From the IMG/VR virus record IMGVR_UViG_3300029319_000146, positions 1 to 39,319 of that record: a stretch of 39,319 nt of DNA. One strand, 5' to 3'. Positions 1,671-16,829 of this stretch are shown piece by piece. How positions within the stretch are numbered: position 1 is the stretch's first letter; every line of letters begins with the position of its first letter. Both the position numbers and the translations under genes were made by a program. The notes under the pieces are model-generated. The model was given only the letters and a program-made list of their open reading frames with translations. It did no database searches and was not told where the DNA came from. Origin of the DNA: a virus.

Positions 1671-3371
1671 TTAGTATCCGAATGTTGCGTCTTGCACTTG
1701 GTACACTTGATTCTTGATTGCACCGAGTTGTTTGTGTATAGAGGTGTAGCCGCTCATTCGAGTCATCACCATGTAACGGAGCGCGTCGTATGCGTGATCT
1801 TCAGCCTTCGTGTCTACGTCTTCGCTGTTTGATTTCGATAGCGGGATACCAGCCATTTGCTTGATAATATTTTGACACGAGGAAAAGATACGTAAGCGAG
1901 GCTCTTCCGTGTACGGATCGTTTGCCAAGCGACGGTGGAGTTCCATCTTTCCTTGTATGCGATTACGGTCGGATGGCGTCCAGCGCACACCGACTCGCAT
2001 CATCGTTTCTGCTATCGAGGGTCCGAAACCCGTCTTGTTCCAGCACGAGGAGTCTAAGACGGTGTAGTGCGGTTGTGGGTCTAGCTCCTCTGCTTCTAGT
2101 ATTTTATCAGCGAGTTCCTCTGCTGTCAAGTGTTTAGCATATAGCTCGCGATAAACCCAGATATTATTATCCCAGTCAATAGCCCCCCACAGAACGCACG
2201 AAGGACTCGCGTACCCATAGTCCGCCGCACGAATGCGGGGCCAGTTGGTTGGAAGTTCAAAATGTTCGACCACATGTCTCGATCTCGAAAACTCGGGGAA
2301 GGCCGCTCCCTCCGCCACGTCCCAATCACCTTCGAGAAGTCGCTTTCGCTCGACTTCTGGGAGCGACCTGAGCATCGCCTCGTATTGGCCGTCTGCCATC
2401 AGGTAGGGATTGTCGGTCAGCCGCGCCGGTACAAACTTGCGAAGGAACAGAGGCTGACCTGCTTTTTCGTGACCGGGGGGCCACAAGAATTCTTTTTTCG
2501 TTTCTATATCGAAGGCAGGAAAAGACTTGTTTGGTTCGACGCCATCGATATAAGTCTTCTTGACCCACCAACCACCCACTCCTCCGGGGTTGGCTGTGCA
2601 GCGCATGTACAGGTGTTGCTGGAGTTCAGGATCAGTAGCACGAAGGCGAGAACGCAGGTAATCCCAGACATACGGCGTAGGATACTGAGTAATCTCATCG
2701 ATGCCGATCCAGTTGAATGCCTGACCTTGAAAGCGAGTTACGTCTTTGTCTTTGTCGAGGTACGTGAACCAGATCGTCGCCCCGGATGGGAACACCCACG
2801 TGGACTTCGACTCGCGAAACTTTGCACCCGGAAAGGCTTTGGGGTACAGTTGGCGGGACTTGTCGATTAGTTCGGTTAGCTCGTCGAGAGTACGCCTAAG
2901 AAGAAGCCCACGATGATTAGGGTTGTGACAGAAGCGCAAAGGATCGGCCAAGAGAGCGAAAGATTTACCGCCCCCGGCTGCACCGCCGTAGAGTACGTCT
3001 CGCTCACCCGCCGAAAGAAAGTCTGTCTGAGGTCCGTCATTCGGCTGAAAAACGACTTCGCTTTCTCCGACCAAGTCAGATACTGCGCTTGGCAGATCAG
3101 CCACATCCCCAAGATCGATTGTGGCAGAAGCATTCCCGACAAGAGCGTTTTCAACTTTTGTAGCTTGTTGTTCGAGCTTTCGAGCATAGCGTCGTTTGTC
3201 CTCTGCTGCTTTGGTTGACTTCGCGGCACGACGCTTTGCAGCGTTGACACGTTTCGTCGCCGCGCGTCGCGCACGTTCCTTTGTAGATAGGTTATATGTG
3301 GCTTTTGGCGCATTCGGATCGCGCTTCGGCCTACCGCGCTTTTTCGGCGCTTCCGGCTGCTTTTCGTCCAC
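1671..3371 (-). CDS. terL: terminase large subunit (packaging ATPase and nuclease)
   Basis: 566 residues. The motor cleaves concatemeric DNA and pumps it into the prohead through the portal. The ATPase part has Walker A GGAAGGGKSFALL and Walker B WIGIDEITQ. The C-terminal RNase H-like nuclease shows the three acidic clusters, AADYGYASP, YTVLDSSCW and DTKAEDHAYDALRY. Start is GTG at 3371 behind a GGAAAGG ribosome site; the gene overlaps the preceding small gene by 41 bases. The first 80 or so residues form a lysine/arginine-rich extension carrying KKRGRPKRDPN, an AT-hook-like sequence, which is not part of the usual terminase core. Gene order small terminase, small basic genes, large terminase places it in the late operon. 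Confidence 0.95.
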   Translation of the reverse strand: MDEKQPEAPKKRGRPKRDPNAPKATYNLSTKERARRAATKRVNAAKRRAAKSTKAAEDKRRYARKLEQQATKVENALVGNASATIDLGDVADLPSAVSDLVGESEVVFQPNDGPQTDFLSAGERDVLYGGAAGGGKSFALLADPLRFCHNPNHRGLLLRRTLDELTELIDKSRQLYPKAFPGAKFRESKSTWVFPSGATIWFTYLDKDKDVTRFQGQAFNWIGIDEITQYPTPYVWDYLRSRLRATDPELQQHLYMRCTANPGGVGGWWVKKTYIDGVEPNKSFPAFDIETKKEFLWPPGHEKAGQPLFLRKFVPARLTDNPYLMADGQYEAMLRSLPEVERKRLLEGDWDVAEGAAFPEFSRSRHVVEHFELPTNWPRIRAADYGYASPSCVLWGAIDWDNNIWVYRELYAKHLTAEELADKILEAEELDPQPHYTVLDSSCWNKTGFGPSIAETMMRVGVRWTPSDRNRIQGKMELHRRLANDPYTEEPRLRIFSSCQNIIKQMAGIPLSKSNSEDVDTKAEDHAYDALRYMVMTRMSGYTSIHKQLGAIKNQVYQVQDATFGY

Positions 3372-3799: not shown

Positions 3800-4130
3800 T
3801 GTAAGTCGCCTTCCTGCCGCGATGAACTTTTCCGCCGCTTGATAGTTTTGGCATCTTGCCTTGCGCGTCTCTGCCGCGTCCTGTCAAAAAGCGACTCGGA
3901 GCAAACAAGCCCCCTCCACCTCCGCCGCCACTTGGGCGAAAGGCTTTTGCTGCCTTGTCTTTTTGTTTGTCAGCTTTATCTTTTGCTTTTTTCGCTTCTT
4001 GATAGCCTTCTTTACTTTTTTTGCGGCCCTCTTTGCGAAAACTGTCAAACTCTTTCTTTACTTCAGCACGGAAGTCAGAGAACCTTTTACGTTGTTCTTT
4101 TTTCCACGCTTCAAAGGCTTTTTCATCCAT
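3792..4130 (-). CDS. lysine-rich coiled-coil protein with GGK/RGRKA tail
   Basis: 112 residues, function unknown. Residues 1-65 are a highly charged, probably coiled-coil helix rich in Lys, Glu and Ala. A seven-glycine run follows (PSGGGGGGGLFAPS), then a basic C-terminus LSSGGKVHRGRKATYNV shared with the next two genes. The start ATG overlaps the small terminase stop by 8 bases (ATGGATGA). The long charged helix resembles small scaffold or DNA-condensing proteins in general character only; no family can be named. Confidence 0.75.
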   Translation of the reverse strand: MDEKAFEAWKKEQRKRFSDFRAEVKKEFDSFRKEGRKKSKEGYQEAKKAKDKADKQKDKAAKAFRPSGGGGGGGLFAPSRFLTGRGRDAQGKMPKLSSGGKVHRGRKATYNV

Positions 4131-4527
4131 CGATGACTACCTCATTCTTCGGTGGCAGAAGGACTACGCCATGCACTGCCGTTACGTTGTGGTTTACCTG
4201 CTCGGGGGCTTTCACTCCGACACGTGTCAAGAGTGATTCTGCTGCCTTGAGGCGCAGGTCGTCTCCGCGTTCTGGGGCGGGGTTGTCTATTGTGTTGACA
4301 AGGCGGTTAGCTGCCTTGATTGCGTTGACGGAAAGGATGTCTTTCGTACGTTCTACGATTTCATCGGCCAAAGTCTTCTTGAGCCACTGCGAAGAGCCGC
4401 GTGAATAGCCTGCATCTACGGCTGCTTGCGTTACGTTACCGCCGTTTTCGAACAAAATGTCCAAGAATGCGGTTTGTTGAGGCGTTAAGGCACGTTCTTT
4501 CGGCTTTTGCTGGGGTAAAAGGTTCAC
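4123..4527 (-). CDS. terS: terminase small subunit
   Basis: About 134 residues. Residues 10-60 (LTPQQTAFLDILFENGGN then VTQAAVDAGYSRGSSQWLKK) fit the N-terminal helix-turn-helix of phage small terminases, which recognise the packaging site and regulate the large subunit. The C-terminal part includes a further helical segment with KAAESLLTRVGV. Position two kilobases upstream of the large terminase in one operon supports the call. The chosen start is GTG at 4527, which overlaps the stop of the upstream gene as GTGA. An in-frame GTG at 4548 would add seven residues but has no ribosome site. Confidence 0.8.
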   Translation of the reverse strand: MNLLPQQKPKERALTPQQTAFLDILFENGGNVTQAAVDAGYSRGSSQWLKKTLADEIVERTKDILSVNAIKAANRLVNTIDNPAPERGDDLRLKAAESLLTRVGVKAPEQVNHNVTAVHGVVLLPPKNEVVIDG

Positions 4528-4718
4528 GTGAAGTCTCTTTCGATGCACTTGAAGCTATACGAGGCCGGAACGGGAAACATTTGAGCTACTCCTTCCGCCA
4601 TTTCGTACGAACGAGCTTTACATTGCTCGTACGTTTCGTACGGACCGCGTGTATCGTCAAAACGTACACACTTGTCCGGTGTGGCTAGGGCACAAACGAG
4701 GAGCATAGCTTCGAACAT
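4524..4718 (-). CDS. small exported or membrane-anchored Cys protein
   Basis: 64 residues, starting MFEAMLLVCALATPDKCVRF. The short hydrophobic N-terminus and three cysteines suggest export or membrane association. AAAGGA precedes the ATG by 11 bases; an in-frame upstream extension to 4781 lacks support. The pattern of hydrophobic start, then Asp-rich turn, GPYETYEQC, and a final Cys close to the C-terminus is repeated in the early gene at 10048-10251, so the two look like distant paralogues. It is the first gene after the late promoter at 4830-4858. Function unknown. Confidence 0.65.
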   Translation of the reverse strand: MFEAMLLVCALATPDKCVRFDDTRGPYETYEQCKARSYEMAEGVAQMFPVPASYSFKCIERDFT

Positions 4719-4829
4719 ACGGGATTTTTCCTTTGAAACGGGGTGAACCACACGTGCGTCGTACCTTTTGTTAGTAAACAACGGTGTTTATGGGAAGGTG
4801 TGACGGGTAAATGTGTGATCCACGCCATA

Positions 4830-4858
4830 AGTATAGCCACGAATAATCGGTATGTCAA
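4830..4858 (-). promoter_or_regulatory. strong sigma70-type promoter for the late/packaging operon
   Basis: On the minus strand, TTGACA (4853-4858), a 17-base spacer and TATACT (4830-4835). This is a near-consensus promoter with its start point about 105 bases upstream of the first late gene (ATG at 4718). It implies that host RNA polymerase transcribes the terminase operon. Confidence 0.8.
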
Positions 4859-4867
4859 CTTTTTTTC

Positions 4868-4896
4868 TTGACAAAATCAAAATTCGACTGTACTAT
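4868..4896 (+). promoter_or_regulatory. candidate divergent sigma70-type promoter with no gene downstream
   Basis: On the plus strand, TTGACA (4868-4873), a 17-base spacer and TACTAT (4891-4896). It is back to back with the late promoter, the two -35 boxes being 9 bases apart. The nearest plus-strand gene starts near 10.6 kb, so if active it would make a noncoding or antisense transcript running into the GTACGTTTTG repeats. The -10 box matches four of six consensus positions. Confidence 0.45.
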
Positions 4897-4946
4897 GGGC
4901 ATAGGCCCGCCGGGGTAAACTATACAAATACCCCCGTCCCACGTTA

Positions 4947-5005
4947 GGGGTACGTTTTGCCCTTCCTTTGGGGTACGTTTTGCTGCCCTAGCGGCGTACG
5001 TTTTG
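4947..5005. repeat. three GTACGTTTTG direct repeats with 23-bp period
   Basis: GTACGTTTTG occurs at 4950-4959, 4973-4982 and 4996-5005, exactly 23 bases apart. The first two copies share a longer unit, GGGGTACGTTTTGC. An inverted pair GGGGTA/TACCCC lies at 4912-4934 and a 12-base palindrome GGGGGTACCCCC at 5063-5074. The regular spacing puts the copies on about the same helix face. They could be operators for a phage regulator of the nearby promoters, or iterons of an origin. Confidence 0.7.
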
Positions 5006-5428
5006 TACCGACCCCGGTTACCTTCAAAAAATAAAATTGATCGCGGTATTGCTAGTGACTGTGGGGGTACCCCCCGTGGCGCTTGCCCGCCCGCGCGCGC
5101 GGAATATCTTTGTTTTTGTCTGTTCTTGTCGGTTTTGGGTCGGATCAAGGCAAGATGAATCTCAATATTATGGATCATCCCGAACACCGGCCCCTGAAGG
5201 TCGGCGACCAAGGCCACCCCCCTCACATGGCACTGAACGGAACCCCCCGCCCGGACGCATAAGCAATAAACATATGCACGCGCCCGCGCCCGCGTTTGCC
5301 ATTTGCCATCCCGATTATCGTTTGCACTCGGCAAGCGAGGTCAAAAAGCGCAGCAATACCCGAACAAGCAACCCGCCGAAATATCCCGCCGATACAACCC
5401 GCAAGCGATATATCCAGCAACCGCCCAC

Positions 5429-5457
5429 AAAAAAACCCCCGGCACTATGACCGGGGG
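5429..5457 (-). terminator. Rho-independent terminator at the end of the early leftward operon
   Basis: On the minus strand, a perfect 7-bp GC stem CCCCCGG/CCGGGGG with an 8-base loop (5436-5457), followed directly by seven T (5429-5435). It lies 47 bases after the stop of the last early gene. Confidence 0.9.
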
Positions 5458-5503
5458 AGTTGGGGAGGAATCCCGGCTATTAGCCCCGCCGGGGGGGTAA
5501 CGG

Positions 5504-5728
5504 TTAATCGTCGATCTTCACCTTGAATTCAGCATTGGCGATCGAACGGGGCGAGTTGTTACCGATCCAAGAGGTGAAGCCCATTGAATCCATAAACGCC
5601 TCAAGCCCCCTGATCTGGTTGTTGATTGCATCGAGGTGGCAGCGCAGCACGGCTATTTCCTTTTCAGTGATAGCGAAAACATCGCGGGCTTCGGGAGTGG
5701 TCAATTCAGTCTTGATTGAGCTTTGCAT
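5504..5728 (-). CDS. small helical protein, last gene of early operon
   Basis: 74 residues, unknown function. Start ATG at 5728 has AAAAGGAA about 9 bases upstream; the open frame continues further upstream but without a better site. The protein is mainly alpha-helical (FAITEKEIAVLRCHLDAINN) and could form a coiled coil. It is separated from the winged-helix gene by about 60 bases that hold a GTACGTTTTT motif (5781-5790), the same core as the intergenic repeats near 4950. The terminator at 5429-5457 follows. Confidence 0.65.
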   Translation of the reverse strand: MQSSIKTELTTPEARDVFAITEKEIAVLRCHLDAINNQIRGLEAFMDSMGFTSWIGNNSPRSIANAEFKVKIDD

Positions 5729-5789
5729 TGTTTCGATTCCTTTTCGAAAAGAGGCGGGCAAAAGCACCCGCCCCTCTTTAGTACGTTTT

Positions 5790-6209
5790 TCAGCCAGTCT
5801 TGGCAAGCCTGTAGATGTGGGTATAGCCACCTTTCCGGTTGCCGGTGTTCTTGATCTCTAGCTGATACCCCGCCTTCTTGAGGCCGGACAAATAGTGATA
5901 GACCGATTGCTTTTTCACACCCAGATGACCGGCAAGCGTGGGCACGGCCATAAACGTACCCCGTGACAGCCAAGAGATCAGGGCCGCATGGGTGGCGTTA
6001 AGGTCCACCGGCTGCGGGTCGGATTCGTGCAGCGGCTCACCGTGCAAGCCAGTGATAGGCTGCGGCTTCGCCACTGGCTTCGACGGGTATTCCTCGCGGA
6101 ATTTAGCGAGAAGCTGAGCGCGTTCGTCAGCACGAATTGCAAGTTCGATGCGGTCGTAACAAGCGCAAAGCTGATCGACTAGGTTCTTCGGAATATTATT
6201 GAAAGTCAT
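5790..6209 (-). CDS. winged helix-turn-helix DNA-binding protein
   Basis: 139 residues. The C-terminal 65 residues (LISWLSRGTFMAVPTLAGHL then GVKKQSVYHYLSGLKKAGY, then a GNRKGGYTHIYRL wing) fit a winged helix domain. The N-terminal 70 residues are helical with a Pro-rich linker. AAAGGAACCG lies just upstream of the ATG. Such proteins regulate phage or host transcription; here it is the only clear winged-helix candidate in the early operon and so a possible ligand for the GTACGTTTT-type sites, which is inference. Confidence 0.65.
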   Translation of the reverse strand: MTFNNIPKNLVDQLCACYDRIELAIRADERAQLLAKFREEYPSKPVAKPQPITGLHGEPLHESDPQPVDLNATHAALISWLSRGTFMAVPTLAGHLGVKKQSVYHYLSGLKKAGYQLEIKNTGNRKGGYTHIYRLAKTG

Positions 6210-6230
6210 TTCGGTTCCTTTCTTTCGAGA

Positions 6231-6311
6231 TTAGACGGCCATGAAGGCCCAGATAAGCATCATCAGAAAACAGACCACTGCGAGCCTGTAGATAAGCAAC
6301 AAGGCTTCCAT
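6231..6311 (-). CDS. 26-residue single-pass membrane peptide
   Basis: Starts directly after the stop of the DUF932-like gene and encodes MEALLLIYRLAVVCFLMMLI followed by WAFMAV. Almost the whole peptide is one hydrophobic helix. No separate ribosome site is obvious, so translation would depend on termination of the upstream gene. It is short enough to be chance, but its immediate abutment and uniform hydrophobicity make a real micro-protein plausible. Function unknown. Confidence 0.4.
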   Translation of the reverse strand: MEALLLIYRLAVVCFLMMLIWAFMAV

Positions 6312-7331
6312 CTAAGCGTAGTTCCTTTCCAAGCCTTGCCAGAACGATGATTCGATCACGTTCCGCACTTCGTCATTGCGCCGGGTCGCTACCAATTCCT
6401 TGTTAGCGTTCCGCTTCTGCGTTCCCGGCAAATGCGTGGCGTAATGCGTCAAGGCATTATAAGCAGCCCACAACGTCGCCCCCAGTTCTGGCGTTTCTTC
6501 CTTGAAGCGTTCGAGCAGCCAGTTGAGTTTAGTTTCGTTGATAGCGAGCGTTTCGTCGTGCTTCGCCGCCCGAGTGTTTTTCCGGCAGATCGTCTGTTTT
6601 AGCATCCGGTGGAAATCGAATTCGGAGCAATGCGAGTTCCGCCAGACTTCCATCTGGTCCCGGTTATTCGTCCACATATCCAAGCCCAGAGATGCCTTTG
6701 AGATCATCGCATCGACGGAAACGTGGCCCCGATGCACCTTCCTTTGGTGGTACGATTTCGCCCCGCCGAATACCAGAGAGTTCCGGCACAAGTCACGGTA
6801 GGCACCCGAGAACACCTGAAAGGCCCACGATAGATCGACGCTGTTGAAGATATCCATGCGGCACTCGACAAGATCAGGCTTGCCGGTCCGGGTCCGGGTC
6901 TCGGTGTTCAGGTCGTGGAAAACCACCGTCCGATGGACCCTCTTCCCATAGCCATATATTCGATCAGTAACCGTCACGTTATCATCCGGCAGGTCAGATT
7001 CCGCCAGCAGCGCCGCTTGTTTCTCGAACAGCGAGTCGTGAGGAATCAGAGCATAGTGCCGGGACACGGGCCGGACATCGAGCAGCGCATCGGTCGCCCG
7101 GTTATACAAGGCCGAGTATCCCTCGACGGGCCGGGCCGACATAACGTCGGATTCCTGCCTGCCGTCATAGATGCGGCTCGGTGTGTGTGCTTCGAGCGGC
7201 ACCCGCTCAACCTTTGCGTATTTCGAGAACAAGCCGACATCCGCCGGGTTGTTGTGGATCGAATAGATTTCGTCACCGCGTTTGATAGCGGCATCGACGG
7301 CGACAGTCTCTGTGTTTACTAAGTCAAGCAT
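6312..7331 (-). CDS. DUF932-like phage/plasmid protein
   Basis: 339 residues from ATG 7331, with GAAAGGAA upstream. The sequence matches the general pattern of the DUF932 (phage/plasmid-like TIGR03299) family: an N-terminal segment with Y.AL..R..D, a central PDLVECRMDIFNSVDLSWAF, FSGAYRDLCRNSLVFGG, and a C-terminal helical part with ATLWAAYNALTHYATHLPG. These proteins are common on phages and plasmids; their biochemical role is not established. It follows an 18-base inverted repeat and a terminator, so it may have its own control. Confidence 0.75.
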   Translation of the reverse strand: MLDLVNTETVAVDAAIKRGDEIYSIHNNPADVGLFSKYAKVERVPLEAHTPSRIYDGRQESDVMSARPVEGYSALYNRATDALLDVRPVSRHYALIPHDSLFEKQAALLAESDLPDDNVTVTDRIYGYGKRVHRTVVFHDLNTETRTRTGKPDLVECRMDIFNSVDLSWAFQVFSGAYRDLCRNSLVFGGAKSYHQRKVHRGHVSVDAMISKASLGLDMWTNNRDQMEVWRNSHCSEFDFHRMLKQTICRKNTRAAKHDETLAINETKLNWLLERFKEETPELGATLWAAYNALTHYATHLPGTQKRNANKELVATRRNDEVRNVIESSFWQGLERNYA

Positions 7332-7361
7332 TGGCGGTTCCTTTCTTCGCATTGCTTGTGG

Positions 7362-7379
7362 CCGGTCAAAATTAACCGG
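7362..7379. promoter_or_regulatory. inverted repeat upstream of the DUF932-like gene
   Basis: CCGGT and ACCGG arms flank an 8-base AT-rich centre, about 30 bases before the DUF932-like start codon. It is operator-like by size and position. No clear -35/-10 pair accompanies it. Confidence 0.35.
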
Positions 7380-7424
7380 TTCTGAATCATGGCATATGTT
7401 TTGCAAGAGTTGAAGCCTCGAAGC

Positions 7425-7468
7425 AAAAAAAGTTGCGGCGGGCTAGCCCCGTCGTCTCGCCGCCCGCC
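7425..7468 (-). terminator. Rho-independent terminator inside the early operon
   Basis: On the minus strand, a 7-bp GC stem (GGCGGGC/GCCCGCC, arms 7462-7468 and 7437-7443) with an 18-base loop, followed after 5 bases by seven T (7425-7431). It separates the DUF7178-like gene from the DUF932-like gene. Confidence 0.65.
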
Positions 7469-7537
7469 TGACCAGCCCGCAAGTCCGCCCCGCCCCAGAA
7501 CGCGCCGAGCAGAAACCATTAGCCAGTCCCCAAAATA

Positions 7538-7590
7538 TTTAGCGTCGCCAGTTTGTCACGCGTACGTTTTAGCGTCGCCGGTTTGTCACG
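7538..7590. repeat. two 23-bp direct repeats flanking a GTACGTTTT motif
   Basis: TTTAGCGTCGCCAGTTTGTC then ACG (7538-7560) recurs with one change (G for A) at 7568-7590, a 30-bp period. The start of the second copy overlaps GTACGTTTTA at 7562-7571, tying this site to the repeats at 4950-5005. The second copy overlaps the end of the DUF7178-like gene. Confidence 0.75.
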
Positions 7591-8203
7591 TTATGCCGTG
7601 CCGGTCGCGCCATACGCGCCAAGTGATCGCCTGTAGTTGGTAGGGCATGAGGCCGAGCCGTTCTGCGGCGGCTTCATATGCAGCCTGCAAAGCGCGGTAT
7701 TCTTTCTTTCCGATGTTTGTTCGGTCGTCAGTGAGACCGACGCGCTCACCATAGGCGATGTTTCGTGCGTGGCCGTCGATTGTCACGTTGAACTCGCCCA
7801 TGATATCCATAAAGAAGGACGTGATTTTCTGACCTTTCAGCATACGTTTTGCGCCGTCGTAGTCCGGACGCGCCGCCAAGATGTCCCAAGCCTTTTGTTT
7901 CATGGCGTTATAGGTCGAGACTTTCACCGACAAGAGACCGTCGCCGCTGATAAACGCGCCGATCAAAGCGTCGGCGTTCACGACATTGCGTGACCATTTG
8001 TTGTTAGGTGAAAGCGCGGCGATGACTGCCGCCACAATATAGACCGGCACGTCATATTTTAACGCGATAAGATATGCTGCCTTTTGTGCGTTGTCATACC
8101 ACAACAAGCCTTCTGCGTGTTGTGTTTCGTCGGCGTCACGGTAAACACAAGTGATATTATATATCATGCGTTCGTGGTCGAATTGCGTGGCTTTTACCGT
8201 CAT
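7586..8203 (-). CDS. DUF7178-like phage protein
   Basis: 205 residues from ATG 8203, which overlaps the upstream stop as ATGA. The open frame extends upstream but the overlap supports this start. The pattern GLLWYDNAQKAAYLIALKY, then VAAVIAALSPNNKWSRNVVN, FMDIMGEFNVTIDGHARNIA and LQAITWRVWRDRHG is that of a phage family labelled DUF7178. The function is unknown to me. The ordered ALSP, IDGHA and ITW blocks suggest an enzyme or a fold related to helix-hairpin-helix glycosylases, but that is only an impression. Confidence 0.7.
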   Translation of the reverse strand: MTVKATQFDHERMIYNITCVYRDADETQHAEGLLWYDNAQKAAYLIALKYDVPVYIVAAVIAALSPNNKWSRNVVNADALIGAFISGDGLLSVKVSTYNAMKQKAWDILAARPDYDGAKRMLKGQKITSFFMDIMGEFNVTIDGHARNIAYGERVGLTDDRTNIGKKEYRALQAAYEAAAERLGLMPYQLQAITWRVWRDRHGIT

Positions 8204-8442
8204 ACGAACACCGCCCCGCCATATATCATGGCCGTGACTGGCGCGTCGGTTTCGATCCATACACGCGCGCCACACGAAAGCGGCTTATCTGGTGAGTAAA
8301 CAACGGACGACGGGCCATCGATCTCTACGCGCTCGGCATAGATATTGCGGTCGTACGTTTTAACAGTGATTGCCGGGTCGTTCGTGCCATTCTTTTTGTT
8401 GGCGCGGATGACGTGCTGGTTGATATGTATTCTTTTCTTCAT
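8200..8442 (-). CDS. small conserved phage protein (beta-rich)
   Basis: 80 residues, starting MKKRIHINQHVIRANKKNG, with AAAGGAACTG upstream of the ATG. ITVKTYDRNIYAERVEIDG and YSPDKPLSCGARVWIETDA form a pattern I associate with a widespread but unnamed small phage protein. Probably beta-rich; no catalytic motif. The stop overlaps the start of the DUF7178-like gene. Confidence 0.75.
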   Translation of the reverse strand: MKKRIHINQHVIRANKKNGTNDPAITVKTYDRNIYAERVEIDGPSSVVYSPDKPLSCGARVWIETDAPVTAMIYGGAVFV

Positions 8443-8477
8443 AGCAGTTCCTTTCGTTAGAAAACGATGCCGAAAAC

Positions 8478-8714
8478 TTACGGGTAATATCCGCCCCGGT
8501 CAAGCGGTTTAATTTTCTCGCCCTGTTCCCGGAGCCAGCATGACGGACAACGAAGCTGTCCGCCATCTCTGATCATGGCCGGTTCGCCGCACACATCGCA
8601 CGGGTACTCACGTGATAGTGTCGTGCGTTTGTCATTTGTCAAGGTTCGGCGTTTGTCATTTGTCACCGATTTGTCAGCCAATGTCGTCAGGCTCCCCCGG
8701 TTCGGCGTGATCAT
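8478..8714 (-). CDS. zinc-ribbon protein with TNDKR repeat
   Basis: 78 residues. Residues 38-61 hold two CxxC knuckles, YPCDVCGEPAMIRDGG and LRCPSCWLREQG, a zinc ribbon. The N-terminus has a short internal repeat, TNDKRRTL then TNDKRTTL. The gene overlaps the end of the upstream gene by 41 bases. A shorter form starting from GTG at 8666 is possible and would remove the overlap; neither start has a strong ribosome site. Function unknown. Confidence 0.6.
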   Translation of the reverse strand: MITPNRGSLTTLADKSVTNDKRRTLTNDKRTTLSREYPCDVCGEPAMIRDGGQLRCPSCWLREQGEKIKPLDRGGYYP

Positions 8715-8844
8715 ACTGCCACTTCAATTGCAGTTCGTCGTAATATTCAGCCACTGTCTCACCGTGCTTGTCGATGAATTCTTGGCGCGTCATATACGAT
8801 GCGTCTTCTTCCATCTCAATTACCCAGTCTTTTACCTTACCCAT
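8674..8844 (-). CDS. 56-residue acidic small phage protein
   Basis: Encodes MGKVKDWVIEMEEDASYMTR then QEFIDKHGETVAEYYDELQL and a Gly/Pro/Asp tail. The start overlaps the upstream stop by 8 bases (ATGGGTAA). Similar short proteins with MGKVKDW..EMEEDA..M.R.EF...HG occur in many alphaproteobacterial phages as far as I recall; no function is known. Confidence 0.75.
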   Translation of the reverse strand: MGKVKDWVIEMEEDASYMTRQEFIDKHGETVAEYYDELQLKWQYDHAEPGEPDDIG

Positions 8845-9139
8845 CGCGTGTCCCTACCTTTCTTTCGTAGCGTTCGATGTCACCGATTGCGTCATCTATT
8901 TTGCCATAGATATGGTCGATGTCTGTGTCAAGCACTTCGATGTCTTCTAAGGCGTGCTTTGCCTGTGTGAGAAAGGCACGGATCACCGTCGTCTGCGTTA
9001 TCTTTGCGCGTAACAATTCACCGTCACCGTCACAGCCGTCGCACTGCATCCACTTCTCAATATCCCCGTACCATATGTACGAAATTTTGCCGTAGCCACC
9101 ACAGTGCCAGCAGTGACAAGATTCGACATGATTTTCCAT
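8837..9139 (-). CDS. DnaJ-type zinc-finger protein with coiled coil
   Basis: 100 residues from ATG 9139, with GGAAAGGA about 12 bases upstream. Residues 7-43 hold two knuckles, CHCWHCGGYGK and MQCDGCDGDGEL, like the CxxCxGxG repeats of DnaJ. Residues 55-95 are a charged helix, probably coiled coil. It lacks a J domain, so it is not a co-chaperone as such; binding to protein or nucleic acid is likely. The same zinc motif occurs as an insertion in this phage's DNA polymerase. Confidence 0.75.
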   Translation of the reverse strand: MENHVESCHCWHCGGYGKISYIWYGDIEKWMQCDGCDGDGELLRAKITQTTVIRAFLTQAKHALEDIEVLDTDIDHIYGKIDDAIGDIERYERKVGTRDG

Positions 9140-9285
9140 CAGCAGTAAATCCTTTCCATGATGCCATTGACCGCGTGGAACATCATCCAGCCCAAGAAGG
9201 CCCAGCAGCACACAAGCAGAAATATTTCAATGTCATCGTGCGTGAGGTAGTATTCCACAGCCTTGTCCCATAGCTTACTTATCAT
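9139..9285 (-). CDS. 48-residue membrane micro-protein
   Basis: Encodes MISKLWDKAVEYYLTHDDIE then IFLLVCCWAFLGWMMFHAVN and a short tail ending YC. One transmembrane helix from about residue 19 to 38. The start overlaps the upstream gene end (ATGATAAGTAA) and its stop overlaps the next ATG (TGATG), so it sits in a chain of coupled genes. Function unknown. Confidence 0.6.
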   Translation of the reverse strand: MISKLWDKAVEYYLTHDDIEIFLLVCCWAFLGWMMFHAVNGIMERIYC

Positions 9286-9379
9286 CACTGTCCTCGTAAC
9301 CTTCGTTGAAATATTCTTCCCATGTTTGTTCAGACAAGAACCAGTCCATTTCGTTGTCTATTTCTTCGTCTTCATTCAT
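9275..9379 (-). CDS. 34-residue very acidic micro-protein
   Basis: Encodes MNEDEEIDNEMDWFLSEQTW then EEYFNEGYEDSDDK. About half of the residues are Asp or Glu. The start overlaps the stop of the upstream membrane gene by 8 bases (ATGAATGA), and its stop overlaps the start of the next gene. A short, highly acidic early protein could act as a DNA mimic or inhibitor, but nothing here proves it. Confidence 0.55.
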   Translation of the reverse strand: MNEDEEIDNEMDWFLSEQTWEEYFNEGYEDSDDK

Positions 9380-9653
9380 GCTCACCCCCATTGCCTCGTC
9401 CCAAGCCACCAAAATACTGCGGCTTACGTTTTGCCGTTTCGAACACACCAAGCGTGATGAACACACCGGCTAACAAGATTGCGTGAACAAGCGCACTGAT
9501 GCCGAACACGACAATCGATCCCATCCAGAACGAAAACACGATGCACCACATCCACGCAAGAACTTGCATAATCATGTGACGGGTATTCACGTCGGGGATG
9601 TTGGACAGCGGGTTCTTTGCGCTGTCCATCACCAGTTGATAAAGTCTAGCCAT
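9372..9653 (-). CDS. two-helix membrane protein
   Basis: 93 residues with a clear AAGGAG 8 bases before the ATG. Two hydrophobic helices, about residues 29-50 (VLAWMWCIVFSFWMGSIVVF) and 52-70 (ALVHAILLAGVFITLGVF), then a polar Gly-rich tail. It follows directly after a terminator and a candidate promoter, so it may begin a separate sub-operon. Holin is conceivable from the topology, but the early position argues against a lysis role. Confidence 0.65.
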   Translation of the reverse strand: MARLYQLVMDSAKNPLSNIPDVNTRHMIMQVLAWMWCIVFSFWMGSIVVFGISALVHAILLAGVFITLGVFETAKRKPQYFGGLGRGNGGEHE

Positions 9654-9681
9654 GTGTCGATCTCCTTTTTAAGATACATAA

Positions 9682-9710
9682 CCCATACCGGTAACAAACA
9701 TACCTGTCAA
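9682..9710 (-). promoter_or_regulatory. candidate promoter after internal terminator
   Basis: On the minus strand, TTGACA (9705-9710), 17 bases, TATGGG (9682-9687), immediately after the terminator T-run and 29 bases before the start of the membrane gene at 9653. The -35 box is perfect; the -10 box is weak. Confidence 0.35.
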
Positions 9711-9747
9711 ACAAAAAAGAACAGGGCCAGCATTTCTGCCAGCCCTG
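9711..9747 (-). terminator. Rho-independent terminator in the early operon
   Basis: On the minus strand an 11-bp stem CAGGGCTGGCA/TGCTGGCCCTG containing two G-U pairs (9722-9747), followed by a T-rich run (9712-9718). It ends the first four genes of the leftward early operon. Confidence 0.75.
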
Positions 9748-9769
9748 CCTCAACTTTCACAACGGAGTT

Positions 9770-9810
9770 ACCGTACGAGGAAAAGGAACCGCTAGGAAAC
9801 CTCGTACGGT
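9770..9810. repeat. 11-bp perfect inverted repeat at gene end
   Basis: ACCGTACGAGG (9770-9780) and CCTCGTACGGT (9800-9810) are exact reverse complements around a 19-base centre. The right arm lies in the last codons of the gene ending at 9792. It could form a large hairpin just before the terminator or bind a dimeric protein. Confidence 0.65.
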
Positions 9811-10061
9811 ATACACAGCTTTAGCACTACCGTTTTGTGCTTGTCAAGCCATCTTTCGCACTCGGCTTCATTTCGTCCGACGAACAACGCAACCCAACGT
9901 GGGTAGTCGATGCACTGCTTTGACTTGACTGCGTTTCGGTTTGTCTCCCCGATCCTGACGGACGAAACCGGAGCGACAACTTCATGTCGGTTATCTTTCG
10001 ATACGACGTGCGGTACGAGGTCATTGCCTTTTCGATCTCTCGGTAGCTTAATCTTTCTCAC
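9792..10061 (-). CDS. early protein of unknown function
   Basis: 89 residues, start GTG at 10061 with GAGGAG 7 bases upstream inside the preceding gene. It begins MRKIKLPRDRKGNDLVPHVV and contains WVALFVGRNEAECERWLDKH. No known domain recognised. Mixed alpha/beta character, one Cys pair not in a motif. It overlaps the upstream gene by 14 bases. Confidence 0.65.
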   Translation of the reverse strand: MRKIKLPRDRKGNDLVPHVVSKDNRHEVVAPVSSVRIGETNRNAVKSKQCIDYPRWVALFVGRNEAECERWLDKHKTVVLKLCIPYEVS

Positions 10062-10251
10062 TTGTTAGCTCCTCTACCCTGATGCACAAGGCTTCCTTGT
10101 TTATAGGCATCTCGTCCCAGAACTCTTGTGTCGACGCAAAGTGACACTCTGCTATCGTGTCGTACGATCCGATAGGTTCAAAGTCAAAGTCGTCACTGTT
10201 ATACGCCGTCACCAGAAGAAGAACCCACACCACCTTCGTAGTCATCATCAT
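10048..10251 (-). CDS. small exported or membrane-anchored protein, paralogue of the 4.5-kb gene
   Basis: About 67 residues from ATG 10251, behind GGAGG with a 6-base spacer. It opens with a hydrophobic segment, TTKVVWVLLLVTAY, typical of a signal or anchor, then DFEPIGSYDTIAECHF and a second Cys near the end (ALCIRVEEL). The order hydrophobic start, G.Y.T...C, final CI matches the late gene at 4524-4718. It overlaps the ribbon-helix-helix gene by 53 bases in another frame. Function unknown. Confidence 0.6.
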   Translation of the reverse strand: MMMTTKVVWVLLLVTAYNSDDFDFEPIGSYDTIAECHFASTQEFWDEMPINKEALCIRVEELTSEKD

Positions 10252-10426
10252 CAAGTGCCTCCAAGTAAATCTCTATGCCTTCACGGATCAAGTCACCAAC
10301 AGATACCTGTGTGATACTCTTGGAGTGTAGCCGTTCAGCATGTTTAGCCAGTTTGTCGTACATAGCTACAGAGATGAGCAAATTGTACGTTTTGGTAGGC
10401 TCATCAATCTTCGGTGGTCTTGGCAT
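10199..10426 (-). CDS. ribbon-helix-helix-like DNA-binding protein
   Basis: 75 residues with GAGG 6 bases before the ATG. Residues 12-56, TKTYNLLISVAMYDKLAKHA then SVGDLIREGIEIYLEAL, fit one beta-strand and two helices of an Arc/CopG-type repressor; an acidic and Gly/Ser tail follows. Such proteins bind as dimers to short palindromes. It is the second gene after the leftward promoter at 10578-10606 and could autoregulate it, which is inference. Confidence 0.65.
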   Translation of the reverse strand: MPRPPKIDEPTKTYNLLISVAMYDKLAKHAERLHSKSITQVSVGDLIREGIEIYLEALDDDDYEGGVGSSSGDGV

Positions 10427-10547
10427 CGCGTACCTCTTTTGTCAATCGTTTGTCTTCTTTGATCTTACGTTTGTCAGGTACAACCCGCTTACCATACTTA
10501 GGTAACTCTTTAGCTATAGGATTTATCTTTTTGATTTTATTCATCAT
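10404..10547 (-). CDS. 47-residue basic NPIAK-type phage protein
   Basis: First gene of the leftward early operon. It encodes MMNKIKKINPIAKELPKYGK followed by RVVPDKRKIKEDKRLTKEV and a short tail; a start one codon later (10544) is equally possible. The NPIAK...(K)Y.(K)RVV.DK(R)K pattern recurs in small proteins of many tailed phages. Its stop overlaps the next gene by 23 bases. It is strongly basic; function unknown. Confidence 0.75.
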   Translation of the reverse strand: MMNKIKKINPIAKELPKYGKRVVPDKRKIKEDKRLTKEVRDAKTTED

Positions 10548-10577: not shown

Positions 10578-10606
10578 AAAGTAGATATCGTATCTGACCT
10601 TGTCAA
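10578..10606 (-). promoter_or_regulatory. leftward early promoter
   Basis: On the minus strand, TTGACA (10601-10606), 17 bases, TACTTT (10578-10583). The start point would lie about 25 bases upstream of the first early gene. The -35 box is perfect and the -10 box moderate. Confidence 0.55.
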
Positions 10607-10620
10607 GAGATTTTTTGTGG

Positions 10621-10649
10621 TTGACGAGGTTATCGGTGTCGGTTACTTT
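10621..10649 (+). promoter_or_regulatory. candidate rightward promoter, possibly leaderless
   Basis: On the plus strand, TTGACG (10621-10626), 17 bases, TACTTT (10644-10649). The expected start point, 7-8 bases downstream, falls at the primase ATG (10657), which has no ribosome site of its own. It is back to back with the leftward promoter, the -35 boxes 14 bases apart. Confidence 0.4.
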
Positions 10650-10656
10650 CGTCGCC

Positions 10657-11463
10657 ATGAAATCACCAGCGTGGCTAAAAACGCACGTCGAGGGACTCGA
10701 CATCGTACCGAACACCAAGTACCGCTCCGACTGTCCGGTATGTGCCAAGAAGAATACCTTCTCGGTTGTGGACAACGGGTTGCAGCGGATGTGGTTCTGC
10801 TTTCATGCGGACTGCAACGTGTCTGGTCGAACAGGTGTTACTCTCTCTCGTATGTCAGCGTCAACCGTGTTCGAGCGGTCGGCGGCTGTGGCACCGCCTT
10901 CCCGTACTAGTAACACTTACGAGATACCCGACACGTTCGTCAGCGTGTCTCGTCGTGTCGAAGCGGAGTCGTACTTGCGTAAATATAACGCATACGACGC
11001 ATATTTGTCAGGTTCTGCCGACATCCGGTACGACGTGCGGATGAATCGTGTGGTGTTTTTAGTCAAAGATGGTAAACGAGTAGTGGATGCAGCAGGGAGA
11101 GCTTTAGATGGACGTGGGCCTAAGTGGTATCGTTATGGAAACAGTAATTTACCTTTTGTTTGTGGTGGAGACGGTGGTGTGGCCGTTCTTGTTGAAGATT
11201 GCGTTTCTGCTTGCGCTGTTTGTGACAGCACAACGGGTGTGGCCCTCTTAGGAACTAATCTTCTTCCTCGACACGTTGAAGTATTGAAACAATATGACCG
11301 TGTGTTCGTGGCTCTCGACAAAGACGCTACCGACAAGGCGATCAGTATGGTACGAACGCTCTACTCGCACGTGCCGACACGCCTCATGGTGCTACACACA
11401 GACTTGAAGAACATGGAAAAGGACGAACGGAATGACTTCTTACGATCCCATATCAATCGATAA
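10657..11463 (+). CDS. DNA primase (zinc-binding plus TOPRIM)
   Basis: 268 residues from ATG 10657. Residues 23-55 form a zinc-binding domain: CPVCAKKNTFSVVDNG then WFCFHADCNVSG. The centre and C-terminal part hold a TOPRIM fold, with the Glu motif VLVEDCVSACAV and the Asp motif VFVALDKDATDKA. It makes RNA primers for lagging-strand synthesis and pairs with the helicase encoded next, whose start it overlaps by 32 bases; in T7 the two are one protein. An upstream GTG at 10636, with GAGG 6 bases before it, would add seven residues. The choice depends on whether the promoter at 10621-10649 is real. Confidence 0.85.
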   Translation: MKSPAWLKTHVEGLDIVPNTKYRSDCPVCAKKNTFSVVDNGLQRMWFCFHADCNVSGRTGVTLSRMSASTVFERSAAVAPPSRTSNTYEIPDTFVSVSRRVEAESYLRKYNAYDAYLSGSADIRYDVRMNRVVFLVKDGKRVVDAAGRALDGRGPKWYRYGNSNLPFVCGGDGGVAVLVEDCVSACAVCDSTTGVALLGTNLLPRHVEVLKQYDRVFVALDKDATDKAISMVRTLYSHVPTRLMVLHTDLKNMEKDERNDFLRSHINR

Positions 11464-12661
11464 ACAGGTACTCGGGTTCGTACTCGATAACGACTTCTTT
11501 TCGAAGGTGTCGAACATCGTGACACGAGACATGTTTACCGGGGAGATGCGTGATGTATTCGATGTAATTTCATACGCACACACGCAATATGGTACGTCTG
11601 TGAACGTACGTGAACTAGGTGCGTTGTTTAACGACCGCAATCCTGCGATGCCGGACTCCACGCGAGAGAAGGCACAGGAGTTAATCGCGGAACTCGAAGC
11701 GGGTACGTCTGACAAGCACGACCTCTACCTCGACTTGGTGAACAACTTTTGGTTGCGTGACCGTGCGCGTCAGATTGGGGAGAAGGCTATCGAAATCTTC
11801 ACAGGCGAAAGCGAAGACTTTGGTGGCTTGCGTCAATTAATTGACGTTGTAGAGGATGGTCGGATTTCTGACAAGACCACGTATCGGATTGTTGACACTG
11901 ACTTTGACACGCTTTTAGAAGACAATACTGGAGAGCCTGACTTTCCTTTTGAGTTCGACCTGATCCGGGAACACGTACCCGGCTTGGATCGGGGTAACTT
12001 GGGTATCTTGTTTGCGCGTCCGGAAGTGGGCAAGACCACGTTTTGTTCGTTCCTTGCCGCCTCGTACATACGACAGGGGTTCAAAGTTGTTTACTGGGCG
12101 AACGAGGAACCGGCGGAGAAGATCATGCTGCGTATCATTCAGTCCTTCTTTGGTAAGTCGAAAGACGAGATGGTGTCAGACAAGGCGCACCTGATGATGC
12201 GGTACGTCTCTGAGATCAAGCCATACTTGACGATCATCGACGCCATTGGTACGTCTGTCGAGGAAGCCAACGACTACGCCAAGCTCAACAGTCCGGACGT
12301 GATGTTCATGGATCAGCTAGACAAGTTCCGCATCGGCGGCGAATACAATCGGGGTGACGAGCGCCTCAAGGAGACGTATGTCCTTGCGCGTGAGATTGCC
12401 AAGCGTAACCGCTGCCTCGTGTGGGCCGTTAGTCAAGCTAGCTACGAGGCGCACGACCGACAGTTCATTGACTACTCTATGCTCGACAACTCTCGTACCG
12501 GCAAGGCTGGTGAGGCTGACATCATCATCGGCATCGGCAAAACCGGAGCGAGTGACGTGACGAACACGGTACGCCACATCTGCATCTCGAAGAACAAGAT
12601 CAACGGTTATCACGATATGATCCATGCAAACATCGACGTGCATCGGGGAGTATATTACTGA
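11432..12661 (+). CDS. DnaB-like replicative helicase
   Basis: 409 residues. An N-terminal DnaB-type helical domain (SIDKQVLGFVLDNDFFSKVS, residues 6-100) is followed by a RecA-like motor. Walker A is FARPEVGKTTF around Lys201, with Ala in place of the usual first Gly; Walker B is DVMFMDQLDKF. The last block contains DNSRTGKAGEADIIIGIGK, as in helicases of the SF4 family. It unwinds DNA ahead of the polymerase. The start overlaps the primase and the stop overlaps the next start as TGATG, so the replication genes are translated as a coupled set. Confidence 0.9.
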   Translation: MTSYDPISIDKQVLGFVLDNDFFSKVSNIVTRDMFTGEMRDVFDVISYAHTQYGTSVNVRELGALFNDRNPAMPDSTREKAQELIAELEAGTSDKHDLYLDLVNNFWLRDRARQIGEKAIEIFTGESEDFGGLRQLIDVVEDGRISDKTTYRIVDTDFDTLLEDNTGEPDFPFEFDLIREHVPGLDRGNLGILFARPEVGKTTFCSFLAASYIRQGFKVVYWANEEPAEKIMLRIIQSFFGKSKDEMVSDKAHLMMRYVSEIKPYLTIIDAIGTSVEEANDYAKLNSPDVMFMDQLDKFRIGGEYNRGDERLKETYVLAREIAKRNRCLVWAVSQASYEAHDRQFIDYSMLDNSRTGKAGEADIIIGIGKTGASDVTNTVRHICISKNKINGYHDMIHANIDVHRGVYY

Positions 12662-12963
12662 TGGCTAATACTAACAGAATAGGTGATATTACTGAACTCG
12701 ACATATGTCACTACTTCTTGGAACACGGTTTCGAAGTTTTCAGAAATGTGGCGTCGAGTGGACCTGTTGACTTCGTTACCTTAGACGTAAACACGGGTGA
12801 GATAACTTTGTATGACAGTAAGACTGTAAATCCGTACTTGAATAAGGATGGTAAATACGTGCTTCACTTGACAAAATTAAGTGACGTTCAAAAACGCTTA
12901 GGTGTTATGCTTGTGGGTAAGTATGGCGATAGACTAATAACTGAATTGAAGACAGAGCTATGA
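12661..12963 (+). CDS. PD-(D/E)XK-like small nuclease
   Basis: 100 residues. The pattern GDITELDICHYFLEHGFEVF, then GPVDFVTLDVNTGEITLYDSKTV, fits a small PD-(D/E)XK nuclease: a helical Glu (about 12), the Asp of VDF, and Asp-X-Lys in YDSK. The third acidic position is Asp rather than Glu, seen in other members. Similar small proteins include archaeal-type Holliday junction resolvases and intron-associated nucleases, and the exact type is uncertain. It lies between helicase and polymerase exonuclease, overlapping both. Confidence 0.6.
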   Translation: MANTNRIGDITELDICHYFLEHGFEVFRNVASSGPVDFVTLDVNTGEITLYDSKTVNPYLNKDGKYVLHLTKLSDVQKRLGVMLVGKYGDRLITELKTEL

Positions 12964-13541
12964 ACGTACTCACTTTCGACGTAGAAACGACGCACGTGGA
13001 GAAGCCGAGCGGGGGCTACACACCTCTGCCGTACTTCGGTAATCGCTTGGTCTCTATCGGATACAAGTGGCTAGTCAGTAGCGTGGACTATGACTGCTAC
13101 TATCACTCAACACAGCCGCCGACTTCAAATGCGTTCACAAAATTTCAAGCTGCCTTGAACCACGCTGACGTACTCGTAGGTCAGAACATCAAGTTCGACT
13201 TGCAGTGGATACGTGAGTGTGGCTTTACTTACGACGGAGATATCTATGATACGATGGTTGCTGAATACATTCTTTCGAAGGCACGGCGTTGGCCTCTCGG
13301 ACTTGCTGCTCTTGCAAGGAAGTATGGTGTCACCCAAAAAGAGACTGACCTTATTGCGCCGTATCTTGAGGCGGGTAAGACCTTCTACGACATCCCGTGG
13401 GAGATCGTACGAGAGTATGGAGTAGCTGACGTAAAGGCTACGGAAGAGATCACACTGAAACAGCTAGACGCCTTTGGCGTAACATTCGAGGAGTTGTTCG
13501 ATGGAAAAGGGACTCGTACCCACACTAAAACTTTCGCTTGA
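12960..13541 (+). CDS. 3'-5' proofreading exonuclease of the split DNA polymerase
   Basis: 193 residues, DEDD exonuclease as in the N-terminal part of family A polymerases. Exo I is LTFDVETTH (Asp7, Glu9), Exo II is LVGQNIKFDLQWI, and Exo III is YGVADVKATEEI. It removes misincorporated bases. The polymerase domain is a separate gene in the next frame, overlapping by 41 bases and with its own GAGGAG ribosome site inside this gene. The exonuclease is therefore a genuine stand-alone protein rather than part of a frameshifted fusion, though the two very likely associate. Confidence 0.85.
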   Translation: MNVLTFDVETTHVEKPSGGYTPLPYFGNRLVSIGYKWLVSSVDYDCYYHSTQPPTSNAFTKFQAALNHADVLVGQNIKFDLQWIRECGFTYDGDIYDTMVAEYILSKARRWPLGLAALARKYGVTQKETDLIAPYLEAGKTFYDIPWEIVREYGVADVKATEEITLKQLDAFGVTFEELFDGKGTRTHTKTFA

Positions 13542-15042
13542 GATGACAGACGTACTCGCTCGTACTGAGCAAGTAGGCTTGAAGATCAACATGGATACGC
13601 TCGACGAGATCGAGCAGATGTACACAGAAGAGCTAGAGACCCTAGAGGTACGGCTCAATGAGTTAGCGCGTGAAGCGATGGGAGACACGCCCATCAGCCT
13701 GACCAGCCCTGACGACCGGTCGATGCTCCTCTACTCTCGTAAGGTCAAGGACAAGAAGGACTGGTCGCGTACGTTCAACTTGGGCATGGAGCAGCGCGGC
13801 GCAACGATGAAGCCGAAGCAGCGTACCCGCTTTTCTCAGCGGGAGTTCAATCAGACCGTGCGCCGCATGACGGACATCGTGTACAAGACACGTGCCGAGA
13901 CGTGTCCTGCGTGTAAAGGTCACGGACGCACCCGTGTCGTAAAGAAAGATGGTACGCTTGGTAAAGCTGTACGTGTGTGTCGCAAGTGCGATGGCAAAGG
14001 CGTACTCTACATGCCAACAGGTGAGGTTGCCGGGTTCAAGATGTCACCGCGCGACTCGTACGACGTGGCCTCTGCTGGCTTTCGTACGGACAAGGACACA
14101 CTCGACATACGTTCGTCAGAATTGTCAGGTGACGCACACGAGTTCGTAAACGGATACGTCCGATTCAACGCCCTGCGTACGTACCTCAATACTTTTGTGG
14201 AAGGTATCAAAAACAATGTGGACGGACAGAGTTTTATCCATCCGGAATTCATGCAGTGTGTTACGGCGACGGGTAGGCTTTCGTCTCGCAATCCGAATTT
14301 CCAAAACATGCCACGCGGTTCGACATTCGCAATACGTAAGGTCGTCGAAAGTCGCTTCAGTGGCGGTTACATTCTTGAAGGGGACTACTCGCAGCTAGAA
14401 TTTCGTGTGGCCGGGTTCCTTGCAAAGGACGAACAAGCGTACACCGACGTGAAAAATTCTGTCGATGTTCACAACTACACAGCGTCCGTTATCGGCTGCA
14501 CACGACAAGAGGCGAAGGCACACACCTTCAAGCCCCTCTATGGGGGCACAACCGGCACAGAGGCCCAACAACGCTACTACAGAGCCTTCAAGCAGAAGTA
14601 TAGGGGGGTAACCCAGTGGCACGACGACCTTCAGCGTATGGCCGTTGAACGGCGAGTAATCACACTTCCGTCCGGACGCGAGTATGCTTTCCCTGATGCC
14701 CGCTGGACGAAGTATGGCACGGCGACACATCGCACATCGATCTGTAATTACCCTGTGCAAGGGTTTGCCACAGCCGACCTCTTGCCTATCGCTCTCGTCG
14801 CATTAGAGAAGGTGGTGCGAGACTCCGGAGTACGCAGCGTGATCTGCAATACCGTACACGACTCTATTGTCATGGACGTACATCCGGACGAAAAAGATAT
14901 TTGCATAGAGATGATGAAGCACGCTATGTTAAGTTTACCCTTTGAAACTGTTCGACGTTATGGTGTCACGTACGACATGCCTGTCGGAATAGAGATCAAA
15001 GCAGGTAAAAATTGGCTTGACTTACACGAAGTAGAACTGTAA
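13501..15042 (+). CDS. family A DNA polymerase with DnaJ-like zinc insertion
   Basis: 513 residues, polymerase domain only. Motif A is EGDYSQLEFRVAGF (Asp295); the O helix is RQEAKAHTFKPLYGG; motif C is NTVHDSIVMD (Asp454), with Ser where VHDE is usual. ATGRLSSRNPNFQNMPRG marks the pre-palm conserved block. Residues 80-180 hold an insertion with two zinc knuckles, CPACKGHG (Cys135, Cys138) and CRKCDGKG (Cys160, Cys163), of DnaJ type. It interrupts the thumb-proximal region between TSPDDRSMLLYSRKV and SYDVASAGF. Such a partial DnaJ central domain is reported for HMO-2011-type phages. ATG 13501 has GAGGAG 7 bases upstream. Confidence 0.95.
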   Translation: MEKGLVPTLKLSLEMTDVLARTEQVGLKINMDTLDEIEQMYTEELETLEVRLNELAREAMGDTPISLTSPDDRSMLLYSRKVKDKKDWSRTFNLGMEQRGATMKPKQRTRFSQREFNQTVRRMTDIVYKTRAETCPACKGHGRTRVVKKDGTLGKAVRVCRKCDGKGVLYMPTGEVAGFKMSPRDSYDVASAGFRTDKDTLDIRSSELSGDAHEFVNGYVRFNALRTYLNTFVEGIKNNVDGQSFIHPEFMQCVTATGRLSSRNPNFQNMPRGSTFAIRKVVESRFSGGYILEGDYSQLEFRVAGFLAKDEQAYTDVKNSVDVHNYTASVIGCTRQEAKAHTFKPLYGGTTGTEAQQRYYRAFKQKYRGVTQWHDDLQRMAVERRVITLPSGREYAFPDARWTKYGTATHRTSICNYPVQGFATADLLPIALVALEKVVRDSGVRSVICNTVHDSIVMDVHPDEKDICIEMMKHAMLSLPFETVRRYGVTYDMPVGIEIKAGKNWLDLHEVEL

Positions 15043-15084
15043 GATGGCCGTTACCGACTATCCAATCGTAAAGGAGTAAAGGAT

Positions 15085-16828: not shown

Positions 16829-16829
16829 T

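Follow-up and report, generated by a model that had tools for sequence, protein, structure and literature searches.

A putative early/late control locus with divergent promoters and a lineage-specific word in an uncultured HMO-2011-type marine podovirus

The viral DNA analyzed here has a single large noncoding gap, which seems to be an early/late control locus, in which a late promoter, a promoter for a short RNA, and a word recognized at the DNA level would be combined. We have moderate confidence in this reading, which is based on comparison of related sequences. The DNA is the IMG/VR virus contig IMGVR_UViG_3300029319_000146, whose full length of 39,319 bases is referred to as the window.

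Genome organization around the noncoding gap

Its protein sequences identify the window as part of the genome of an uncultured marine podovirus of the HMO-2011 type. Phages of this type are widespread in marine metagenomes. TerL relatedness, one criterion for this type, was observed: the TerL of the window shares 50-59% identity with those of HMO-2011-type podoviruses, and the best named matches are CRP-2, CRP-603, and HMO-2011 at 55-59%. The type is also recognized by a DNA polymerase with two CXXCXGXG (DnaJ-type) motifs (PMC8528129), and the polymerase at 13501-15042 contains CPACKGHG at residue 135 and CRKCDGKG at residue 160. The DNA polymerase region (12960-15042) is divided into two genes, one of the exonuclease type and the other for the polymerase. 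The main genes and operons, taken from gene calls, are as follows.

1671-3371, minus strand: terminase large subunit (TerL), packaging gene, leftward
4123-4548, minus strand: terminase small subunit (TerS), packaging gene, leftward
4782-5503: noncoding gap of 722 bp, between the packaging genes (left) and the early operon (right)
5504-10547, minus strand: early operon, leftward
5790-6209, minus strand: winged helix-turn-helix (wHTH) protein, weak match to HTH_11
10199-10426, minus strand: possible ribbon-helix-helix (RHH) protein, weak match to a repressor
10600-20163 and on, plus strand: replication module with primase, helicase, split DNA polymerase, Cas4-type exonuclease, endonuclease I, and RNR

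The structural genes, again leftward, lie beyond the replication module. The next largest gap computed from the gene calls is 179 bp, a quarter as long, and the region around the 722-bp gap is estimated to be about 96% coding. No plausible plus-strand gene was found before the primase at 10600, a distance of 5.7 kb, which agrees with the original prediction of more than 5 kb free of such genes. An open frame of 159 residues (4855-5334, minus strand) spans the noncoding locus; it was treated as spurious because it overlies the promoters and the array described below. Gene calls outside the window are rough.

When named phages were searched with the locus at the DNA level, no match, near or distant, was obtained. 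A nearby core pattern with up to two mismatches was absent from CRP-2 and HMO-2011 in a weak test that allowed one spacer length only; in both phages, the annotated genes upstream of TerS are closely packed. The bacterial genomes scanned for the promoter core contained none, and in the HMO-2011-type phage literature searched, promoters and noncoding RNA are unmentioned.

Divergent promoters PL and PR

The elements of the gap and two word sites beyond it are listed below.

4830-4858, minus strand: PL, sigma-70-like promoter directed toward a small ORF, TerS, and TerL; TTGACA 4858-4853, TATACT 4835-4830, 11/12 matches, spacer 17
4850-4920: promoter core, 71 bp, from blastn and ungapped comparison
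4868-4896, plus strand: PR, sigma-70-like promoter directed rightward; TTGACA 4868-4873, TACTAT 4891-4896, 10/12 matches, spacer 17
4897-4908, plus strand: dyad GGGCATAGGCCC over the predicted start site
4906-4914, plus strand: leader box CCCGCCGGG, which is CCNGCCGGG in nearly all relatives
4912-4917 and 4929-4934: inverted pair GGGGTA / TACCCC
4950-5005, plus strand: array of three GTACGTTTTG decamers, the lineage-A word, 23 bp apart
5024-5040, plus strand: A-rich block TCAAAAAATAAAATTGA from the alignment listing; A-rich here in most lineages
5063-5074: palindrome GGGGGTACCCCC; similar G/C runs in relatives
5083-5125, plus strand: candidate weak rightward terminator of the PR RNA, hairpin 5083-5102 and T-rich tail
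5337-5435: conserved noncoding block with GCAGCAATNCCCGAAC and CCCGCC repeats 13 bp apart; blastn matches in relatives
5436-5457, minus strand: intrinsic terminator of the leftward early operon, also in the relatives compared
5781-5789, plus strand: second site of the word, immediately following the wHTH stop codon
7562-7570, plus strand: dispersed copy of the word, in the intergenic gap that ranks second in size; also at this place in L090, L094, and L098

The near-consensus leftward promoter and the good rightward promoter originally described are both found, and their -35 boxes are 9 bp apart in the window. The inverted GGGGTA pair and the GGGGGTACCCCC palindrome of the same description are also present. 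A plain consensus scan of the window is not significant alone (two promoters found against 1.7 expected). The promoter pair is regarded as significant because it is conserved in relatives. In a set of relatives fetched via TerL without use of the promoter, 40 had enough upstream DNA; 39 of the 40 carry the rightward TTGACA-17-TAnnnT followed by the CCNGCCGGG leader, and none of the 40 does so on the opposite strand. The promoter pattern itself was used to retrieve a second set. In the combined set, a leftward promoter with at least 9/12 matches is located upstream in 62 of 62 distinct loci, all selected by the rightward promoter, as compared with 7% of 195-base stretches drawn at random from the window; many of the loci are short, mutually related contigs, and locus counts here and below are not counts of independent events. 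Consensus hexamers, a spacer of 16-18, and retention in relatives, by which a sigma-70 pair is recognized, are thus all observed. Furthermore, the 71-bp core is 90-96% identical where the flanks have diverged, including relatives that lack the decamer array.

From its position, PL would be the promoter of the packaging operon. The -35 boxes are separated by 9 bp in lineages A, B, and S; in other lineages the distance is larger and reaches about 52 bp. It is therefore plausible that PL and PR mutually exclude RNA polymerase in the window, but this is not a general rule.

A lineage-specific word at the array

The decamer GTACGTTTTG occurs at 4950, 4973, and 4996, exactly 23 bp apart as was first noticed, between the back-to-back promoters and the end of the early operon. 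With further copies at 4658 (minus strand) and 10385 (plus strand), the window contains five copies against 0.11 expected. In lineage A, to which this word belongs, the array consists of two to four copies of GTACGTTTT. The original prediction had called for conservation of the repeat spacing in relatives. The 23-bp spacing is indeed the commonest among relatives with the same word; the spacing is not fixed and ranges from 23 to 35 bp.

Other words occupy the array position in other lineages: GTTGCAAAA (L004 and L005), CACTGTTTT (L025 and L028), CTCCGCTGC (L026), GTTCG-type words (L144 and L155), and GTTGCCGGG (L164, L175, and L156). Lineage B, which is large, has no array and retains the promoters; the locus can therefore do without the word. 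Across these sequences, the decamer array is lineage-specific and is replaced by another word in most related lineages examined, where the lineage labels were set from the words themselves after inspection of the sequences, with rules adjusted as lineages appeared.

The same decamer was also seen in 23-bp tandem arrays in L082, L083, and L086, for example GTACGTTTTGTACAAAGTACTAT in L083. These three have no blastn match to the window locus, and their arrays are possibly iterons of other elements.

Dispersed copies and the second site

The array word is not confined to the array. In most array-bearing lineages it ranks with the 9-mers that are most over-represented in the DNA examined, although in short loci the array itself supplies part of the count. 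The lineage-A word is present in 9-19 copies in the longer lineage-A records, in 8 and 3 copies in the partial records G019 and G021, and in 0-4 copies in others, as compared with 0 and 0-3 copies of the reversed word in lineage-A records and others, respectively. In the long genes of six related genomes, 26 copies were counted, where amino acids and codon usage would predict 2.8; these lineage-A genomes share ancestry, and the pooled figure overstates independence. For the window alone, the corresponding value is not significant (1 against 0.32). Of the dispersed window copies, about two of eight are intergenic, and both strands are used. Dispersed lineage-specific words are clear for A, L4, and C2 and weak for K and S, the latter two words being not clearly enriched outside the element.

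The second site, at 5781-5789, carries the own word of the lineage in A and L4. Its sequence is AAAACGTAC in lineage A and TTTTGCAAC in the GTTGCAAAA lineage; in many other lineages, a promoter-like CTTGTGCTTATAAT / TGTGCTTATAAT is located there, before a conserved hairpin (window 5729-5789). L143 appears to be a mosaic: its promoter element is of lineage B, its wHTH gene resembles that of lineage A, and its second site has the A word. In addition, a second family of dispersed motifs around TTTGTCA / TGACAAA (ATTTTGTCA, TATTGTCAG, and CGTTTGTCA) was seen at window 7520-7600 and in relatives, and is over-represented in several lineages.

Association of the word with the replication module

When identities were compared gene by gene in full records, the replication genes and TerS divided A from non-A, and TerL did not: the window and the GTTGCAAAA lineage share 93% identity in TerL. 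Helicase relatives, fetched as a separate set, give a broadly concordant picture: the word is frequent at 88% identity or higher, patchy at 77-80%, and absent or limited to at most two copies below. In these comparisons, the word and the lineage go with the replication module and not with TerL. This co-inheritance could reflect shared ancestry rather than function.

The wHTH and possible RHH proteins had been proposed originally as binders. As readers of the decamer they look wrong, since they do not follow the word. The recognition helix of the wHTH protein is unchanged in phages with a different word (L142 and L166). In the RHH protein, the strand predicted to contact DNA does not vary between words, save one residue in lineage B. 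Neither protein is therefore likely to be the reader. TerS is also disfavored, because contigs of the G019/L087 type have the word or the array together with a distant TerS (73%). None of the replication genes and proteins searched was recognized as an initiator.

The predicted PR RNA

The dyad over the predicted start site of PR has arms that often change together between lineages (GGAC/GTCC and GGGTC/GACCC), and it is missing in about a tenth of sequences. Given the position of the -10 box, its left arm would be untranscribed. Within 260 nt after PR, hairpins with T-runs resembling intrinsic terminators are present in 41 of 74 loci, as compared with 11 of 216 shuffles (5%). In some lineages these hairpins are strong and lie just 60-100 nt from the start. 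PR thus probably makes a short noncoding RNA, and such an RNA is likelier than a 5-kb antisense transcript because of these terminators. In the window, the best terminator candidate (hairpin 5083-5102) is weak, and the predicted RNA folds no better than shuffles (z -1.3).

When the window and ten related loci were compared with Rfam, no family reached the gathering score. A weak match to SorX at 5430-5500 was below the cut-off, and this segment is the early terminator. A possible stem between GGTATTGCT (5045) and AGCAATACC (5352) is exact in the window and is not kept in relatives by eye; base pairing was rejected.

Proposed mechanism

In the control-locus reading, PL would start the leftward packaging operon. 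PR, back to back with PL and itself conserved, would start a short noncoding RNA, which would end at intrinsic terminators after about 60-260 nt. The zone between PR and the A-rich block holds, in several lineages, two to four copies of a lineage-specific word of 9-10 bp, and the same word is dispersed on both strands through most of those genomes. Most likely, the word serves as a site recognized on the DNA by a factor that would be inherited together with the replication module. Binding of such a factor to the array would govern RNA polymerase leaving PR and access to PL, and possibly the start of replication.

The arrangement is reminiscent of the stoperators of cluster A mycobacteriophages (L5 gp71 and Bxb1 gp69), which are short, asymmetric, dispersed sites whose consensus differs between immunity groups (PMC3029335). 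The present words are likewise short, dispersed, and lineage-specific. In contrast to stoperators, the copies here are not mainly intergenic, nor one-way outside the array zone, and some of them form a local array next to paired promoters. A repressor of the stoperator type, with recognition residues that track the site, was not found when the wHTH and RHH proteins were compared. Chi-type and uptake-type words of bacteria are also lineage-specific 8-10-mers over-represented in coding and noncoding DNA; the word here differs from them in having tens, not hundreds, of copies, clustered at a promoter.

Alternative readings

Two rival readings, a replication origin and an antisense RNA, stand out among the alternatives. 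The locus might instead be a transcription-dependent replication origin, which we consider possible and rather less probable than a control locus. Host RNA polymerase at PR would open or prime the A-rich block, and the repeats would be iterons for a replication-linked protein, on a logic like that of T7, or like that of the RNA-based origins known from certain mycobacteriophages. The gap is the only large noncoding one, its repeats adjoin an A-rich block present in most lineages, and the word and TerS track the replication module; furthermore, the lack of an initiator among the replication genes examined is consistent with RNA-dependent initiation. The phased direct repeats beside an AT-rich element that characterize iteron origins are observed in lineage A; lineage B, however, has the A-rich block and the promoters without the array. 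Several lineages place a terminator before the A-rich block, and in the window, GC skew changes with the direction of the genes and does not point to an origin. In iteron origins such as lambda ori and those of RepA plasmids, direct repeats lie about two helical turns apart by an A-rich block and a promoter. Here, the spacing varies from 23 to 35 bp, and single copies are dispersed genome-wide, genes included, unlike plain iterons. A closer likeness is offered by the RNA-based origins of extrachromosomal mycobacteriophage prophages (Alma, LadyBird, and RedRock), gene-free regions of 400-500 bp that make a noncoding RNA and have no RepA-type initiator (PMC7157519). The present region is also gene-free, with a predicted noncoding RNA and no RepA-type initiator among the proteins searched. 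Those origins adjoin parABS in temperate phages, whereas no parABS was noticed here and the locus is at the terminase end.

It is unlikely that the PR RNA acts as an antisense regulator like the P4 CI and P1 c4 RNAs, in which words exposed on hairpins would pair with early mRNA and trigger termination, so that a changed word would make a new specificity group. The c4 RNA of P1/P7 is the same kind of short RNA as P4 CI RNA. The latter is short and untranslated, has words complementary to phage transcripts, and causes transcription termination (PMC4825925). The predicted PR RNA would resemble it in being short and untranslated and in having words complementary to phage transcripts, such as the second site in A and L4, which is complementary to the array word and lies between the stop codon and the terminator hairpin. 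In some lineages, the word is in or beside terminator hairpins. Copies in the early zone favor the complementary orientation by 31:11, but this bias comes from a few homologous sites, and elsewhere the orientation is unbiased (12:16 and 6:6). The 9-mers of the predicted PR RNA that are antisense to early mRNA are 2.0 times the reversed-sequence control, as compared with 1.4 times for the same sense, a modest excess; this control was used because a plain comparison of antisense and sense 9-mers is confounded by base composition. Many copies of the word, however, are in late genes, where pairing would be impossible, and unlike in P4 CI RNA, the word is also found on the noncomplementary strand.

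The original prediction of a control switch holds in that a control locus with two divergent promoters, one probably for a noncoding RNA, is seen; its further proposal of a long noncoding or antisense RNA from PR that passes through and silences the early operon is very improbable, since terminator-like hairpins at 60-260 nt occur in over half of the relatives tested, even if PR faces that operon with no plus-strand gene for 5.7 kb.

Equally improbable is the view that the repeats are TerS binding sites of a packaging (cos/pac) region, like lambda cosB beside terS. The array is upstream of terS, TerS splits A from non-A in full records, and two near-complete contigs open inside the gap: the L115 contig (G001; 54,901 bases, with ends overlapping by 91 bases) and G002. 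Nevertheless, G019/L087 combine the array with the distant TerS, the word is present throughout the genome, and contig ends, by eye, are not at one homologous point. Physical genome ends in the gap were rejected, as the contig ends scatter and one contig closes by the 91-bp overlap.

Implications

Paired promoters that nearly all of the tested relatives retain, together with a swappable word, give a handle on the timing of late genes or the start of replication in these phages. The word is also a marker by which uncultured phages may be sorted into specificity groups. If a replication-linked factor reads the word, the choice of origin would become open to testing in these phages, for which the genes found here include no RNA polymerase. 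A bolder proposal, which we put forward tentatively and think unlikely, is that the locus represents a new family of phage short-RNA genes, always paired with a packaging-operon promoter, in which the lineage word defines mutually distinct specificity groups and is read at matching sites genome-wide. If this were true, the short-RNA family and its word would constitute an RNA- or DNA-based system of incompatibility or immunity in lytic marine podoviruses.
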